Below are positions 33,792-51,542 of a DNA stretch of 64,000 nt, one piece after another. Origin of the DNA: Flavobacterium sp. 90 (GTDB taxonomy: Bacteria; Bacteroidota; Bacteroidia; Flavobacteriales; Flavobacteriaceae). Numbering within the stretch: the first letter of the stretch is position 1; every line of letters starts with the position of its first letter. A program made the position numbers and the translations under genes. The notes under the pieces are model-generated. The model was not told the DNA's origin and made no database searches. It saw only the letters and a list, made by a program, of their open reading frames with translations. The DNA lies in contig NZ_SMGE01000001.1 of the NCBI RefSeq assembly GCF_004339525.1, positions 6,014,001 to 6,078,000 of the forward strand, written 5' to 3'.

Positions 33792-33904
33792 AAAAAAATA
33801 CTCTATTTAACTAAATAGTTGTTAACGGTAAAATCGAAATCAAATGTTAGTTTGATATTTGTGTTTGTCTCAAAACTCTGGTCCGCGAGAGCTTGAAATT
33901 ATAC

Positions 33905-34115
33905 GCATTGGCAGGTCTCCTGACTTATTCCCATTTTGATCAGCCTTCCCACATTTAGAAAAAATGCAGTGGCAAAAGATTCGATTTCAAAGGCTTAAAA
34001 AAGCGATTAGATCAGTCAAAATGTTGCATGGAATTTACAGTAACGGGCTTGTTCAGGATTTGCACCTGATTCCCTCTTCGTCAGCTAAACTCGAAAAGAA
34101 TAGCTAAACCATTGC
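33905..34115 (-). ncRNA. Cobalamin riboswitch
   Basis: On the minus strand the conserved elements appear in order: GGTGCAAATCCTGAACAAGCC, then CGTTACTGTAA, GCCACTG, GGGAAGG and AGTCAGGAGACCTGCC. The closing P1 stem is GCAATGG (34109-34115) with CCAATGC (33905-33911). It lies 114 bases before the btuB-like start. Adenosylcobalamin binding should shut down the operon. Confidence 0.93.
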
Positions 34116-34120
34116 GAGCG

Positions 34121-34128
34121 CAAAGATA
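34121..34128 (-). promoter_or_regulatory. -7 promoter element of the B12 operon
   Basis: TATCTTTG on the minus strand, immediately 5' of the riboswitch. The -33 element is not clear. Confidence 0.6.
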
Positions 34129-47318: not shown

Positions 47319-48137
47319 TTACCAGCCTTTTACCGCTCCGCCTTTAAACTCGCGAACGGCTGCCTGCTCTACTTCTGCAGATTGAAAAGCTTTTACAAAC
47401 TGTTGTATTTTCTCTTCTTTTTTATTGTCTTCACGACTTACGATAAGATTTACATAAGGAGAATCTTTATCTTCAACAAATAAAGCATCACGCGCAGGAA
47501 CTAATCCGGCTTGTGAAGCAAAAGTATTATTGATAATCGCAATCGTTACGTTTTGATCGTCTAAAGCTCTTGGTAATTGTGGCGCTTCAAGTTCTAAAAT
47601 CTTAAGGTTTTTAGGGTTTTCTACGATATCAGTTACTTTAGGCAATAAACCTACATTTGGACGCAATTTCAATAATCCGTTTTTTTGTAAAAGCAACAAC
47701 GAACGTCCACCGTTTGTTGGATCATTTGGAATAATAATCGTGCTTTCGTTTTTTAATTCCGAAAGGTTTTTGATTTTCTTCGAATAAGCAGCAATTGGAT
47801 AAATGAAAGTTTTTGCGATAATTGCTAATTTATATCCGCGTTGTTTTGATTGTTCGTCAAGATAAGGTTTGTGCTGAAAAGCATTTGCATCAATATCTCC
47901 CTGACTCAAAGCCTCATTTGGAATTACATAATCGTTAAACGAAACCAACTCTACATCTAAACCATATTTATCTTTGGCTACTTTTTGTGCTGCCTGCGCC
48001 ACAGCATATTCCGGTCCAGCAGCTACACCAACTTTTATGTGATGCGGATCGTCGTTTTTACTTTTTCCGCAATTAGCCAATGATAATGACAAGGCTATAA
48101 TTCCGGCTGCTTTTAAAAAATTTATTTTCGTATTCAT
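47319..48137 (-). CDS. metQ: Methionine-binding lipoprotein MetQ
   Basis: A 272-residue NlpA-family lipoprotein (lipobox SLANCGKSKND). HIKVGVAAGPEYAVAQAAQKVAKDKYGLDVELVSFNDYVIPNEAL and the block IIIPNDPTNGGRSLLLLQKNGLLKL are typical of MetQ. It captures methionine outside the inner membrane for MetI/MetN. It is separated from metI by 504 bases filled with two repeat copies, so it may depend on readthrough or have its own promoter. Confidence 0.92.
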   Translation of the reverse strand: MNTKINFLKAAGIIALSLSLANCGKSKNDDPHHIKVGVAAGPEYAVAQAAQKVAKDKYGLDVELVSFNDYVIPNEALSQGDIDANAFQHKPYLDEQSKQRGYKLAIIAKTFIYPIAAYSKKIKNLSELKNESTIIIPNDPTNGGRSLLLLQKNGLLKLRPNVGLLPKVTDIVENPKNLKILELEAPQLPRALDDQNVTIAIINNTFASQAGLVPARDALFVEDKDSPYVNLIVSREDNKKEEKIQQFVKAFQSAEVEQAAVREFKGGAVKGW

Positions 48138-48641
48138 TCTTTTATTTTTATAATTAATATCTATTCTGTGTGTTTGTTTTAATTCTTAATTTATATTTAT
48201 CTGTTCACTGTGTGTATTTTACCGCAAAGTGCGCTAAGATTTTCGCAAAGTTTACTAAGATTTGGTTGTGTAAACACAATTTAAAGTACGCAAAGCTTTG
48301 CGAACTTTGCGTTTTTAACAAACTTAGCAGAGTAAAAAACTTTGCGCACTTTGCGGTAAAATCTCAAAGTTATTCTCCTATTTTTTAATTTTTAATTCCT
48401 GATTTTTAATTGAAATCTGAGTGTTCTCTGTGTGTTTTTTACCGCAGAGTTCGCAATCCCGATAGCTATCGGGATTCGCAAAGTTCACTAAGATTTGATT
48501 GTGTAAACACTTTATAAAGTACACAAAGCTTTGCGGGCTTTGCGTTTTTAACAAACTTAGCAGAGTAAAAAGCTTTGCGAACTTTGCGGTAAAATCTCAA
48601 AGCTATTTTTTAATTTTTAATTTCAAATTTTTAATTGAAAC
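48138..48641. repeat. Two tandem palindromic repeats (family 4) inside the met operon
   Basis: Copy 1 is at 48211-48369, bounded by a perfect 17-bp inverted repeat: TTTACCGCAAAGTGCGC (48218-48234) and its complement (48344-48360). Copy 2 is at 48431-48602 and has the same arms in weaker form. It also carries a 22-bp perfect palindrome (48455-48476; arms AATCCCGATAG and CTATCGGGATT) within its left arm. Offset 220 bp. No gene lies in the gap. Confidence 0.85.
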
Positions 48642-49295
48642 CTATCTATGATCAAATCGTTTTGATAAAAAATCACCCACAAACTGTATCAGAAACACTA
48701 ACAAAACAAGCAATCCCAAAACTGAATTCATCGTTACCGCATCATAACCAATATATCCGTATTGATATCCAACTTGTCCTAAACCGCCTGCTCCCACAGC
48801 TCCACCCATCGCCGAATATCCAACAAGTGTGATTAAGGTGATTGATGCTGCGTTTATTAATGATGGCAAAGCTTCCGGAAGTAACACTTTATATACAATT
48901 TGAAAAGGAGTTGCTCCCAAAGCTCTTGCAGCTTCAATTAATCCGGCAGGCAAACCTAACAGACTATTTTCTACAAGTCGTGCTATAAATGGTGCGGCTC
49001 CAATACTTAAAGGCACTAATGCTGCACTAACACCAATCGAAGTTCCCACAAGTGCACGTGTAAACGGAATCATCCAAACGATCAAAATAATGAACGGAAT
49101 TGAACGAAAGATATTCACCAAAACTGATAAAACTCTGTTTAAAACCGGTTGTTCTAGGATTTGATTTTTACGAGTTAGAAAAAGCAAAATTCCTGTTGGA
49201 AGTCCCAGCGCAAAGCCAAAAAAACCAGAGACAAATGTCATAACGATAGTTTCCCAAGTGCCTTTTAATAATAATTCAAAAATGGATTCAGACAT
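48642..49295 (-). CDS. metI: Methionine ABC transporter permease MetI
   Basis: A 217-residue permease with five hydrophobic segments and the EAA-loop signature [48 protein letters not shown] and [19 protein letters not shown] are typical of MetI. It overlaps metN by 8 bases, so translation is coupled. Confidence 0.95.
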
Positions 49296-50319
49296 AACCT
49301 ATGATTTCAGTTTTAATATGTTTAGAAATAAAATATTGGATTGCAGCTTCGTAATTCTCGCGTTTACCGGATAATTCGATCAGCATAACTCCGAAATTAA
49401 CGTCTCCGGCCTGATCCATTTGTGCGCTTACAATTTTAAAATTGGTGTCGAATAATCTCGAAACTTCAGAAATAACAGGTTCATTTACTGATTTTCCGGT
49501 CATTTCAAGTCTTAACAAAGGGCTTAAACCTTCGCCATCTTCCTTTTGAAGCTTTTCCAGATAAACCGTCGGAATATCAAGATGTAACGATGACGAAATA
49601 AATTCTTTTGTCAATTCATGCTTTGGATCTGCAAAAATTTCACCAACACTTCCCTGCTCTATTAATTTTCCGTGACTGATTACGGCTACCTCATCACAAA
49701 TAGATTTTACAACTTCCATTTGATGTGTAATCAATAAAATGGTAATATTAAGACGACGATTGATATCTTTTAATAAGTTTAAAATTGATCTTGTTGTCGC
49801 CGGATCCAATGCGCTAGTAGCTTCATCGCATAATAGCACTTTCGGATTATTGGCTAATGTTCTCGCAATCGCAACTCTTTGTTTTTGACCACCCGAAAGA
49901 CTTGCAGGATAATCGTTTGATTTTTCGGCTAAACCTACTAATTGCAATAATTCTAAAACTCGTGTCTGAATTTCTGATTTTGAAACTCCAACAAGTTCCA
50001 ACGGAAAAGCAACATTCTCAAAAACAGTTCTCGATGAAAGCAGATTAAAATGTTGAAAAATCATTCCAATTTGTCTTCTTTCAATTGCAAGCTGCGCATT
50101 TGAGAGTTGTATTAACGGTTTTCCATCTACTATAATTTCTCCCGAAGTTGGTCTTTCTAATAAATTTACACATCGAATTAATGTGCTTTTTCCTGCTCCG
50201 GAAGTTCCTATTACACCAAAGATTTTCCCTGGAGGAACTTTAAGTGAGACATCTGATAAAGCCGAAACAATTCGGTTTTTCTGATGGAAATTTTTAGTTA
50301 CATTTTTTAATTCAATCAT
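49288..50319 (-). CDS. metN: Methionine ABC transporter ATPase MetN
   Basis: A 343-residue ATPase: Walker [11 protein letters not shown]-loop [12 protein letters not shown], signature [16 protein letters not shown], Walker [14 protein letters not shown] and the H-loop LLITHQ. The C-terminal NIL domain (about residues 265-343, ending TEIIGYV) is the methionine-sensing regulatory module. It drives uptake of methionine through MetI. Its 5' region holds a terminator hairpin and a short Met-rich ORF (50452-50532), so transcription is probably attenuated by methionine supply. Confidence 0.95.
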
Positions 50320-50382
50320 TTTTTTTATTCAAGTTTATTTGGGGTAATAAAATGTTTCATTGCTTTAGAATTTGATAAATTT

Positions 50383-50420
50383 TAAAATAAAAAGACCTTT
50401 CAATTGTTTATGAAAGGCCT
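50383..50420 (-). terminator. Attenuator terminator upstream of metN
   Basis: On the minus strand GGCCTTTC (50412-50419), a 10-base loop, GAAAGGTC (50394-50401; one G-U pair), then T5ATTTT. It lies 64 bases before the metN ATG and 32 bases after the leader ORF stop. Confidence 0.7.
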
Positions 50421-50451
50421 TAAAATAAATTCATTTTTTATATCAGCCAGA

Positions 50452-50532
50452 TCAAAACATACGCATAGCAACATCACAACACATCATCATGTTGCAGCTA
50501 TAATACATTCTATTCTGGTTATCGTTTTTCAT
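50452..50532 (-). CDS. Putative Met-rich leader peptide of the metNIQ operon
   Basis: A 26-codon ORF starting at ATG 50530-50532 (minus strand) and ending at TGA 50452-50454. Its second half reads MMMCCDVAMRMF, so 7 of 26 residues are Met and 3 are Cys. The run of three Met codons lies inside a hairpin with a perfect 7-bp stem (GCAACAT/ATGTTGC, 50468-50495). The ORF is followed by a terminator hairpin and then metN. This is the layout of a ribosome-mediated attenuator: stalling at scarce Met-tRNA would favour readthrough into metN. No SAM riboswitch was seen. Translation is not proven. Confidence 0.6.
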   Translation of the reverse strand: MKNDNQNRMYYSCNMMMCCDVAMRMF

Positions 50533-50540
50533 TTCTGGGG

Positions 50541-50548
50541 CAAATTTA
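50541..50548 (-). promoter_or_regulatory. Possible -7 element for the met leader
   Basis: TAAATTTG on the minus strand. It is only 8 bases before the leader ATG, so the transcript would be nearly leaderless; an upstream promoter is equally possible. No -33 box. Confidence 0.35.
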
Positions 50549-50858
50549 AAGAGTTATTTTTAATTTTTATGCATAAAACCATAAAACTTTTATTATCCTA
50601 TCAATGTAATAGGTTAATAAGCGCCAAACATTGCAGAATCATTAAAAAAATCAGATAATTTATATATTTTTTCTCGCCTCTTTTTATTACAAAAAACACC
50701 AAACAACCTACAAATCAGACACATACACTCTAAAAACAATACTTTCATGCTAAAAGTCTGTTAAATAACAGGTTCTTTATAAAACTAAACTGTCAAATAT
50801 TACGTATGTACGGAAATACGATAGTCTGGAATGGTATATATTCAAATGGTATTGGTTT

Positions 50859-51199: not shown

Positions 51200-51542
51200 C
51201 ACGCTAATTATTGGTAATCATAAACTTCAAAATTCGTTCGCTTGTGATAGCAGAGCAACAACGAATAATCCCCTTGCGTACCTACCGCACGCTAAATACA
51301 CTCGTATTTTTATTTTTTCTACCAATGTGTTGTACCTGACGGCATAAAAGGCAGATTTTGTTCATTTAGATAAAGTTTTTAAAATGTGCCTTAGGCACTC
51401 TAAAGGTTGGTAATAATAAACTCTGAAATTCGCTGTCGTGCCGTAGGTACGCAACAAAACGACTTGCATTGCGTACCTACAGCACGCTAAATACATTCGC
51501 ATTTCTATTTTTCTACCAATATGTTGTACCTGACGATACAAT
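51200..51542. repeat. Nested-palindrome repeat, family 1, copies D1 and D2
   Basis: D1 (about 51200-51346) has a decayed left arm but a good inner and right half. D2 (51385-51542) is intact: TGTGCCTTAGGCACTCTAAA, inner GTCGTGCCGTAGGTACGCAA with TGCGTACCTACAGCACGC, right arm TGTTGTACCTGACGATACAA. D2 ends directly at the stop codon of the TonB receptor gene. Confidence 0.85.

Follow-up and report, generated by a model that had tools for sequence, protein, structure and literature searches.

To our knowledge, leader-peptide attenuation keyed to methionine has hardly been described, and a search of openly licensed literature turned up no Bacteroidota leader peptide for either Met or Cys. The closest described system upstream of the same genes is metL, a leader predicted before metNIQ in Streptomyces lividans TK24 (PMC8079986): in the sections of that paper used here it is a short ORF, transcribed leaderlessly, whose end holds a cluster of Met and Cys (CMCRRMCAF), but it is actinobacterial, lacks a typical Rho-independent terminator according to its authors, and is noted by them for Met and Thr rather than Cys. 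The leaders of mycobacterial cys operons likewise combine runs of Cys codons with a short ORF preceding sulfur-metabolism genes, but they belong to another phylum; the 2005 analysis gave no terminator hairpin conserved among them, and its considered parts make no mention of Met codons (PMC1262725). Both metL and these mycobacterial cysteine leaders are likened to the Flavobacterium leader described below by eye only. A 2020 study of the latter by Canestrari et al. is said to carry the words 'leaderless' and 'cysteine-responsive' in its title. Closer in phylogeny, 'strong clues' for leader-peptide attenuation at amino-acid operons come from F. psychrophilum, a member of the same genus with the same type of mechanism, in which pheA, hisG, and alaS are preceded by conserved 5′ elements, but the main text of that report contains neither 'methionine' nor 'glutamate dehydrogenase' (PMC9723704). 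In the same phylum, Bacteroides thetaiotaomicron has long 5′ UTRs with small ORFs 'reminiscent of leader peptides' and suspected attenuation, but in the portion of the source considered the example is a hypothetical protein gene and methionine figures only in a medium recipe (PMC7366714). The E. coli trp leader (trpL) offers the mechanistic parallel, with hairpins that exclude each other, control codons ahead of segment 2, a 3:4 terminator, and like folding behavior, but it serves a different amino acid and a biosynthetic operon. It is also led by a Shine-Dalgarno sequence. Messenger RNAs in the Bacteroidota naturally go without Shine-Dalgarno sequences, according to the part of the source drawn on (PMC6847099). 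The original prediction, which knew of no described methionine leader in Bacteroidota, therefore stands for the phylum as far as our search extended, but it has to be set beside the Streptomyces metNIQ leader and the attenuation reported in F. psychrophilum. Since leader peptides have been suggested or predicted in F. psychrophilum, B. thetaiotaomicron, and S. lividans, and cysteine leaders in Actinobacteria, the kind of system is already known. What appears new is the sensor core in this phylum, together with the additional targets and the tandem layout reported below.

The locus lies in a window of 64,000 nt (the whole stretch of DNA analyzed) from Flavobacterium sp. 90 (GCF_004339525.1, NZ_SMGE01000001.1, positions 6,014,001–6,078,000, forward strand). 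On its minus strand we recovered a metNIQ operon, as originally predicted, comprising genes for the methionine ABC transporter ATP-binding protein MetN (49288..50319; TIGR02314, 543 bits against a cut-off of 499.7, with a NIL domain, PF09383), the permease MetI (48642..49295; NF008049, 376 bits, cut-off 212), and the methionine-binding lipoprotein MetQ (47319..48137; NF008285, 427 bits, cut-off 374). Upstream of metN, on the same strand, is the proposed Met-rich ORF of 26 codons (50532–50452), which encodes MKNDNQNRMYYSCNMMMCCDVAMRMF followed by a stop codon and contains seven Met and three Cys, including the run ATG ATG ATG TGT TGT (MMMCC) at 50476..50490. It is followed by a terminator at 50420–50389 (AGGCCTTTCATAAACAATTGAAAGGTCT, then T to 50389; predicted fold –13.1 kcal/mol), which begins 31 nt past the leader stop codon and whose T-run ends 69 nt before the metN ATG; both elements had been correctly recognized, with distances given as 32 and 64. 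The perfect 7-bp hairpin claimed around the Met codons is present as complementarity (GCAACAT/ATGTTGC), but the predicted fold uses another register, within an extended hairpin that takes in most of the ORF (z=–3.96 relative to dinucleotide-shuffled sequences). The ORF is unusual in composition: it is the only one with at least seven Met among the window's 435 ATG-initiated ORFs of 15–60 aa, and first-order resampling of the 180-nt leader (20,000 replicates) gave an ORF with at least seven ATG codons only 12 times. Eight nucleotides before the leader ATG is a predicted Bacteroidota sigma-A –7 box of the form TAnnTTTG (TAAATTTG; 50541..50548, minus). As such boxes are placed at –12 to –5 in the considered part of the F. 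psychrophilum report (PMC9723704), transcription is predicted to start at about 50536, so that the 5′ UTR would be only some 4 nt long. We interpret this arrangement as a ribosome-mediated transcription attenuator that probably reads the charging of both Met-tRNA and Cys-tRNA, and place the probability of this reading at roughly 0.7.

Consistent with the original prediction, neither a SAM riboswitch nor a T-box was detected in the window at Rfam gathering scores, and no SAM-family or T-box model was among the matches in 50300–50700 at E-values up to 10. As for a known RNA family covering the leader itself, none reached its gathering score, and the 11 weak matches at E up to 10 fell far below cut-off. 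The sole gathering-score match in the window is a cobalamin riboswitch at 33893–34128 on the minus strand (89.5 bits). Elsewhere in the genome, away from metNIQ, three SAM-I riboswitches exceed the cut-off: the first downstream ORF of at least 100 aa encodes, respectively, a MetX-like protein (L346), a protein of 334 aa that matches methionine synthase MetH over its N-terminal part (L347), and a TlpA-like protein (L345), all below curated cut-offs. Hence, the notion that the leader acts in place of a SAM riboswitch fits the metNIQ operon alone; because the genome possesses SAM-I riboswitches, the leader would supplement them with another kind of signal instead of standing in for one that is absent.

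MetN searches were positive in 74 of 398 sampled Flavobacterium genomes (E ≤ 1e-120), and we read the upstream regions of 73 of these, omitting one with metN at a contig end (G390/L023). The leader is present in all 62 upstreams with a MetN of 90–100% identity (61 by an initial pattern, and one, L102, which has lost most of the Met/Cys core, by separate reading), and was not found in the other 11 of the 73, where MetN is 65–75% identical. All 62 leaders also retain the TAnnTTTG-N8-ATG spacing. Across the 62 peptides (59 distinct), the positions kept besides the start are M16 (47/62), M17 (58/62), C18 (60/62), C19 (56/62), and M23 (56/62), together with a Gln at position 6 (56/62), while positions outside the Met/Cys core are freer to vary. 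By this alignment the conserved core is Met-Met-Cys-Cys, with Cys kept no worse than Met; two leaders have NNCC and one NICC, thereby losing the Met pair and retaining the Cys pair. The codons at C18 vary (42 TGC and 18 TGT), a sign that selection acts on the amino acid. Relative to window ORFs of at least 200 aa, Met is enriched 6.6-fold and Cys 12.6-fold. The Met codons and the terminator being conserved in related Flavobacterium bears out the original expectation, but a sensor keyed to Met-tRNA proved too narrow a description: Met is indeed part of the core, but so is Cys, and the best reading of the codons is that the leader responds to both. The MMCC-encoding sequence does not serve as a standalone motif: ATGATGTGYTGY occurs five times in the genome (the reversed control does not occur), and the other four occurrences are not in leader ORFs. 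Outside the genus, 3 of 11 Chryseobacterium metN loci have a similar leader with the core MMMYCC; no leader was found at metN in the other eight or in Dyadobacter (1 locus), Pedobacter (2), and Apibacter (1). As a control, an M(x)CC ORF with at least six Met plus Cys occurs in 0 of 60 metN upstreams from outside Bacteroidota, a filter that itself picked up 6 of the 19 Bacteroidota loci but not an NNCC leader (L020). In a family-level sample of 299 genomes, MetN was recovered at E ≤ 1e-105 only in the window's own.

A covariance model built from the metN leaders (R1) and run on 299 Flavobacterium genomes retrieved 42 metN leaders and 58 other matches at E ≤ 1.8e-5. We fetched 57 of the latter, leaving out a second match in one genome (G202), and found a leader ORF with an MCC-type core at every one of them (counting the variants ICC, LCC, MCR, and MCY). 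The implied restriction of the leader to metNIQ is therefore refuted: the genes that follow encode glutamate dehydrogenase (51 loci), an EamA transporter (3, two of which also have an amino-acid permease within the fetched stretch), a permease alone (1), and CpeT-family proteins (2). Glutamate dehydrogenase, EamA, and CpeT pass Pfam cut-offs, while the names MetX-like, MetH part, YedA-like, BcaP-like, and glutamate dehydrogenase as used here are NCBIfam matches below the curated cut-offs. Three further weak R1 matches (L215–L217) show neither a leader nor any of the target genes. The window's own genome has such a leader before gdhA (MKNYSLYIIPFMCCSEICCMSNDAMKWR; G000:C1:4634334-4634497, L205), and a mixed covariance model (R2) gives two strong matches there, at metN and gdhA, with the next at E 3e-4 or weaker. 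When R2 was run on the 299 family genomes, many of the matches listed covered the terminator end only, and an ORF scan of 28 loci from other genera (L226–L253) found an MCC-type core, promoter, and terminator together in none, though Met- or Cys-rich ORFs passing part of the filter occur at L233, L235, and L237. R2 is too narrow for its negatives to rule out relatives, since a Chryseobacterium leader already known scores no better than E 0.004 with it; apart from the Chryseobacterium metN leaders, a spread of the leader beyond the genus is unproven. Glutamate dehydrogenases found in 21 other genomes of 100 from the family are 41–44% identical.

Several of these loci carry leaders in tandem. 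In the window's own genome, a second Met/Cys-rich ORF, MRSNRNTNIMMQCCLMKIPCWRMQ, lies between the first terminator and gdhA, with no second terminator evident at that locus. Such a second ORF was found by pattern at 49 of the 51 gdhA loci (47 with CC; a stricter listing missed a few) and by eye at the other two (L218 and L344). At these two loci the second ORF is followed by what appears by eye to be its own terminator; in the same two genomes metN has no leader, yet gdhA keeps the leader pair. In other Flavobacterium genomes, each of the three eamA loci (L208, L211, and L224) has two such units in tandem, the second ORF coming with a terminator of its own (–15.2 to –18.7 kcal/mol). The composition of the tandem ORFs bears on the possibility that cysteine is the main signal, with the Cys pair doing the sensing and the adjoining Met codons mattering little: in 20 second gdhA leader peptides Cys (14.7%) exceeds Met (8.9%), which agrees with C18 being the best-kept position after the start of the metN leader, with the retention of the Cys pair in the NNCC and NICC variants, and with the cysteine leaders known from Actinobacteria, as far as the considered parts of that source describe them (PMC1262725). 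However, M17 and the later Met of the metN leaders are kept almost as faithfully, the first gdhA leaders have the core MCCM in 36 of 41 distinct peptides, and the operon downstream of the leader in the window imports methionine; we accordingly regard cysteine as the main signal as unlikely.

The recurrence of one short motif before unrelated genes is poorly explained by a pure starvation signal and raises the alternative of an arrest peptide, in which the nascent MCC chain would detect a drug or other small molecule from within the ribosome tunnel, much as TnaC detects tryptophan, and stall without starvation; that the best named match of one target transporter is the exporter YedA (below cut-off) points the same way. 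Arrest peptides usually require several fixed residues. Most positions around the MCC motif vary instead, the two enriched amino acids are chemically related, and a downstream importer fits starvation, all of which makes a tunnel sensor distinctly improbable in comparison with an attenuator reading tRNA charging.

The RNA architecture expected of such an attenuator was analyzed in an alignment of 60 leaders (A1), from which two (L137 and L138) were omitted as identical in leader DNA to a third (L133). Four segments, all on the minus strand, can be delineated in the window: segment 1 (CCAGA; 50514..50518), which would form a protector hairpin with segment 2; segment 2 (TCTGGCT; 50445..50451), right after the leader stop codon; segment 3 (AGGCCTTTCA; 50411..50420), at once the 5′ arm of the terminator and the partner of segment 2; and segment 4 (TGAAAGGTCT with the T-run; 50389..50402), the terminator 3′ arm. 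Three alternative pairings are conserved: 1:2 is paired in 91% of alignment cells, with both sides changed in three of its five pairs; 2:3, the antiterminator, is paired in 99.6% of cells over GGCT:AGCC, with GGC/GCC invariant in 60/60; and 3:4 is paired in 99.8% of cells over 10 pairs. Pairings 1:2 and 3:4 together have 9 double-changed cells against a shuffled mean of 1.8, counts that overstate independence because the sequences are related, while covariation is uninformative for 2:3 because its pairs hardly vary. Segment 2 lies inside or overlaps the ORF end in 50 leaders and lies past the stop codon in 10, including that of the window; since its GGCT is invariant (60/60) both within the ORF end and beyond the stop, it is kept as RNA. 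Thus, the layout of ribosome-mediated attenuation put forward in the original prediction is conserved across the 62 upstreams in its ORF, core codons, protector, antiterminator, and terminator, with the pairings counted on the 60 aligned. When 30 leaders from both classes, metN and non-metN, were aligned together, an antiterminator (TGAAA(T)GGC with GCCTTTCA) was 88% paired, with covariation not beyond that of shuffles.

Folding simulations were consistent with these pairings being used as alternatives. The free full-length RNA formed the terminator in 60/60 leaders, as did the RNA with a ribosome at the stop codon; with a ribosome on the core and the polymerase just past segment 3, the antiterminator formed in 58/60 (the exceptions being L146 and L161). 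The corresponding figures for the non-metN leaders, covering 51 of the 57 loci (the remaining six, two of them with MCY cores, were read separately), were antiterminator in 51/51 with the ribosome on the core, terminator in 51/51 with it at the stop, and, for the free RNA, terminator in 49 and antiterminator in 2. The mutually exclusive antiterminator anticipated in the original prediction was thus recovered in the stalled partial transcript but in 0/60 with the full transcript, where the terminator formed in 60/60 despite the stalled ribosome; antitermination therefore has to be kinetic. With the full transcript the terminator also wins under stalling in the trp leader of E. coli, so that this test does not decide the matter. 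In the protector test segment 2 was paired upstream in 60/60, but with the polymerase just past segment 3 and no ribosome the antiterminator was already folded in 11/60, a sign of imperfect protection in the model. The antiterminator also comes out weak, averaging –6.0 kcal/mol against –12.8 kcal/mol for the terminator. Composition accounts for part of the leader pairing: segment 3 was still paired upstream in 857 of 1200 cases with shuffled spacers, segment 2 was hidden in 1481 of 2400 with shuffled ORFs, and the z-score of the ORF fold against shuffles lies below –2 in only 30/60 leaders (median –2.0). In sum, by sequence and folding the locus has the codon-rich ORF, intrinsic terminator, antiterminator, and protector that characterize trp/his-type attenuators, and its nature as an attenuator is well supported by the comparison of leaders.

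We infer the following course of events. The polymerase would start about 4 nt before the leader AUG, and because of this short distance a ribosome would load almost immediately. With ample Met and Cys, the ribosome would proceed to the stop codon and cover segment 2, leaving segment 3 to pair with segment 4, and transcription would terminate before metN. With either amino acid scarce, it would stall in MMMCC and open the protector hairpin, segment 2 would stay free to capture segment 3 as it emerges, the terminator would fail to form, and metNIQ would be made. With no ribosome, the 1:2 hairpin would hide segment 2, making termination the default. The leader's translation, the stalling, the coupling, the response to Met and Cys, and the direction of control are accordingly those that the codons and pairings suggest.

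The related attenuators before gdhA, the eamA-permease operon, and the CpeT-family gene make the metNIQ leader look like one member of a sulfur-amino-acid attenuation regulon. More tentatively, and with somewhat less than even confidence, we propose that Flavobacterium has a regulon-wide dual switch responding to Met and Cys charging, in which near-leaderless MCC leaders, some in tandem, would make methionine import, amino-acid transport, and glutamate dehydrogenase depend on the supply of sulfur amino acids, with these serving as a proxy for general amino-acid supply. There is no obvious physiological reason for Met/Cys control of glutamate dehydrogenase, and this counts against the attenuator reading. 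If the attenuator reading is right, a genome bearing SAM-I riboswitches uses another signal, tRNA charging, for methionine uptake, and sulfur-amino-acid supply would be tied to a central nitrogen enzyme. The tandem layout and the constant TAnnTTTG-N8-ATG spacing would also make this a simple system for studying how transcription and translation are coupled in Bacteroidota.

Further upstream is a palindrome, CCTATTACATTGATAGG (50597..50613), which starts 81 bp upstream of the leader ATG and is a candidate transcription-factor site. By raw count, 61 of the 62 leader-bearing upstreams have a palindrome of the CTAY...GATAGG type, placed –77 to –81 relative to the leader ATG, and 8 of the 11 leader-less ones have a similar site (CTACTT...CYATAG or CTACTT...CTATAG). 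On these counts a transcription factor may act too, in which case metNIQ may be under two layers of control; but that regulation rests with the promoter through this palindrome, the terminator being constitutive and partial and the ORF an incidental or functional small Cys/Met-rich protein, is very improbable given the conservation of segments 1 and 2, the invariance of GGCT in and outside the ORF, and the recurrence of this architecture ahead of four further gene types. Two sets of repeats were also noticed. The gap between metI and metQ (48182–48640) contains duplicated repeats (one of 149 nt with 89% identity and two shorter families) that include inverted repeats of 20–28 nt. A 44-nt plus a 28-nt repeat occurs in two copies, about 195 nt apart, at 51274–51535, in the stretch that separates the leader region from a TonB-dependent receptor gene.
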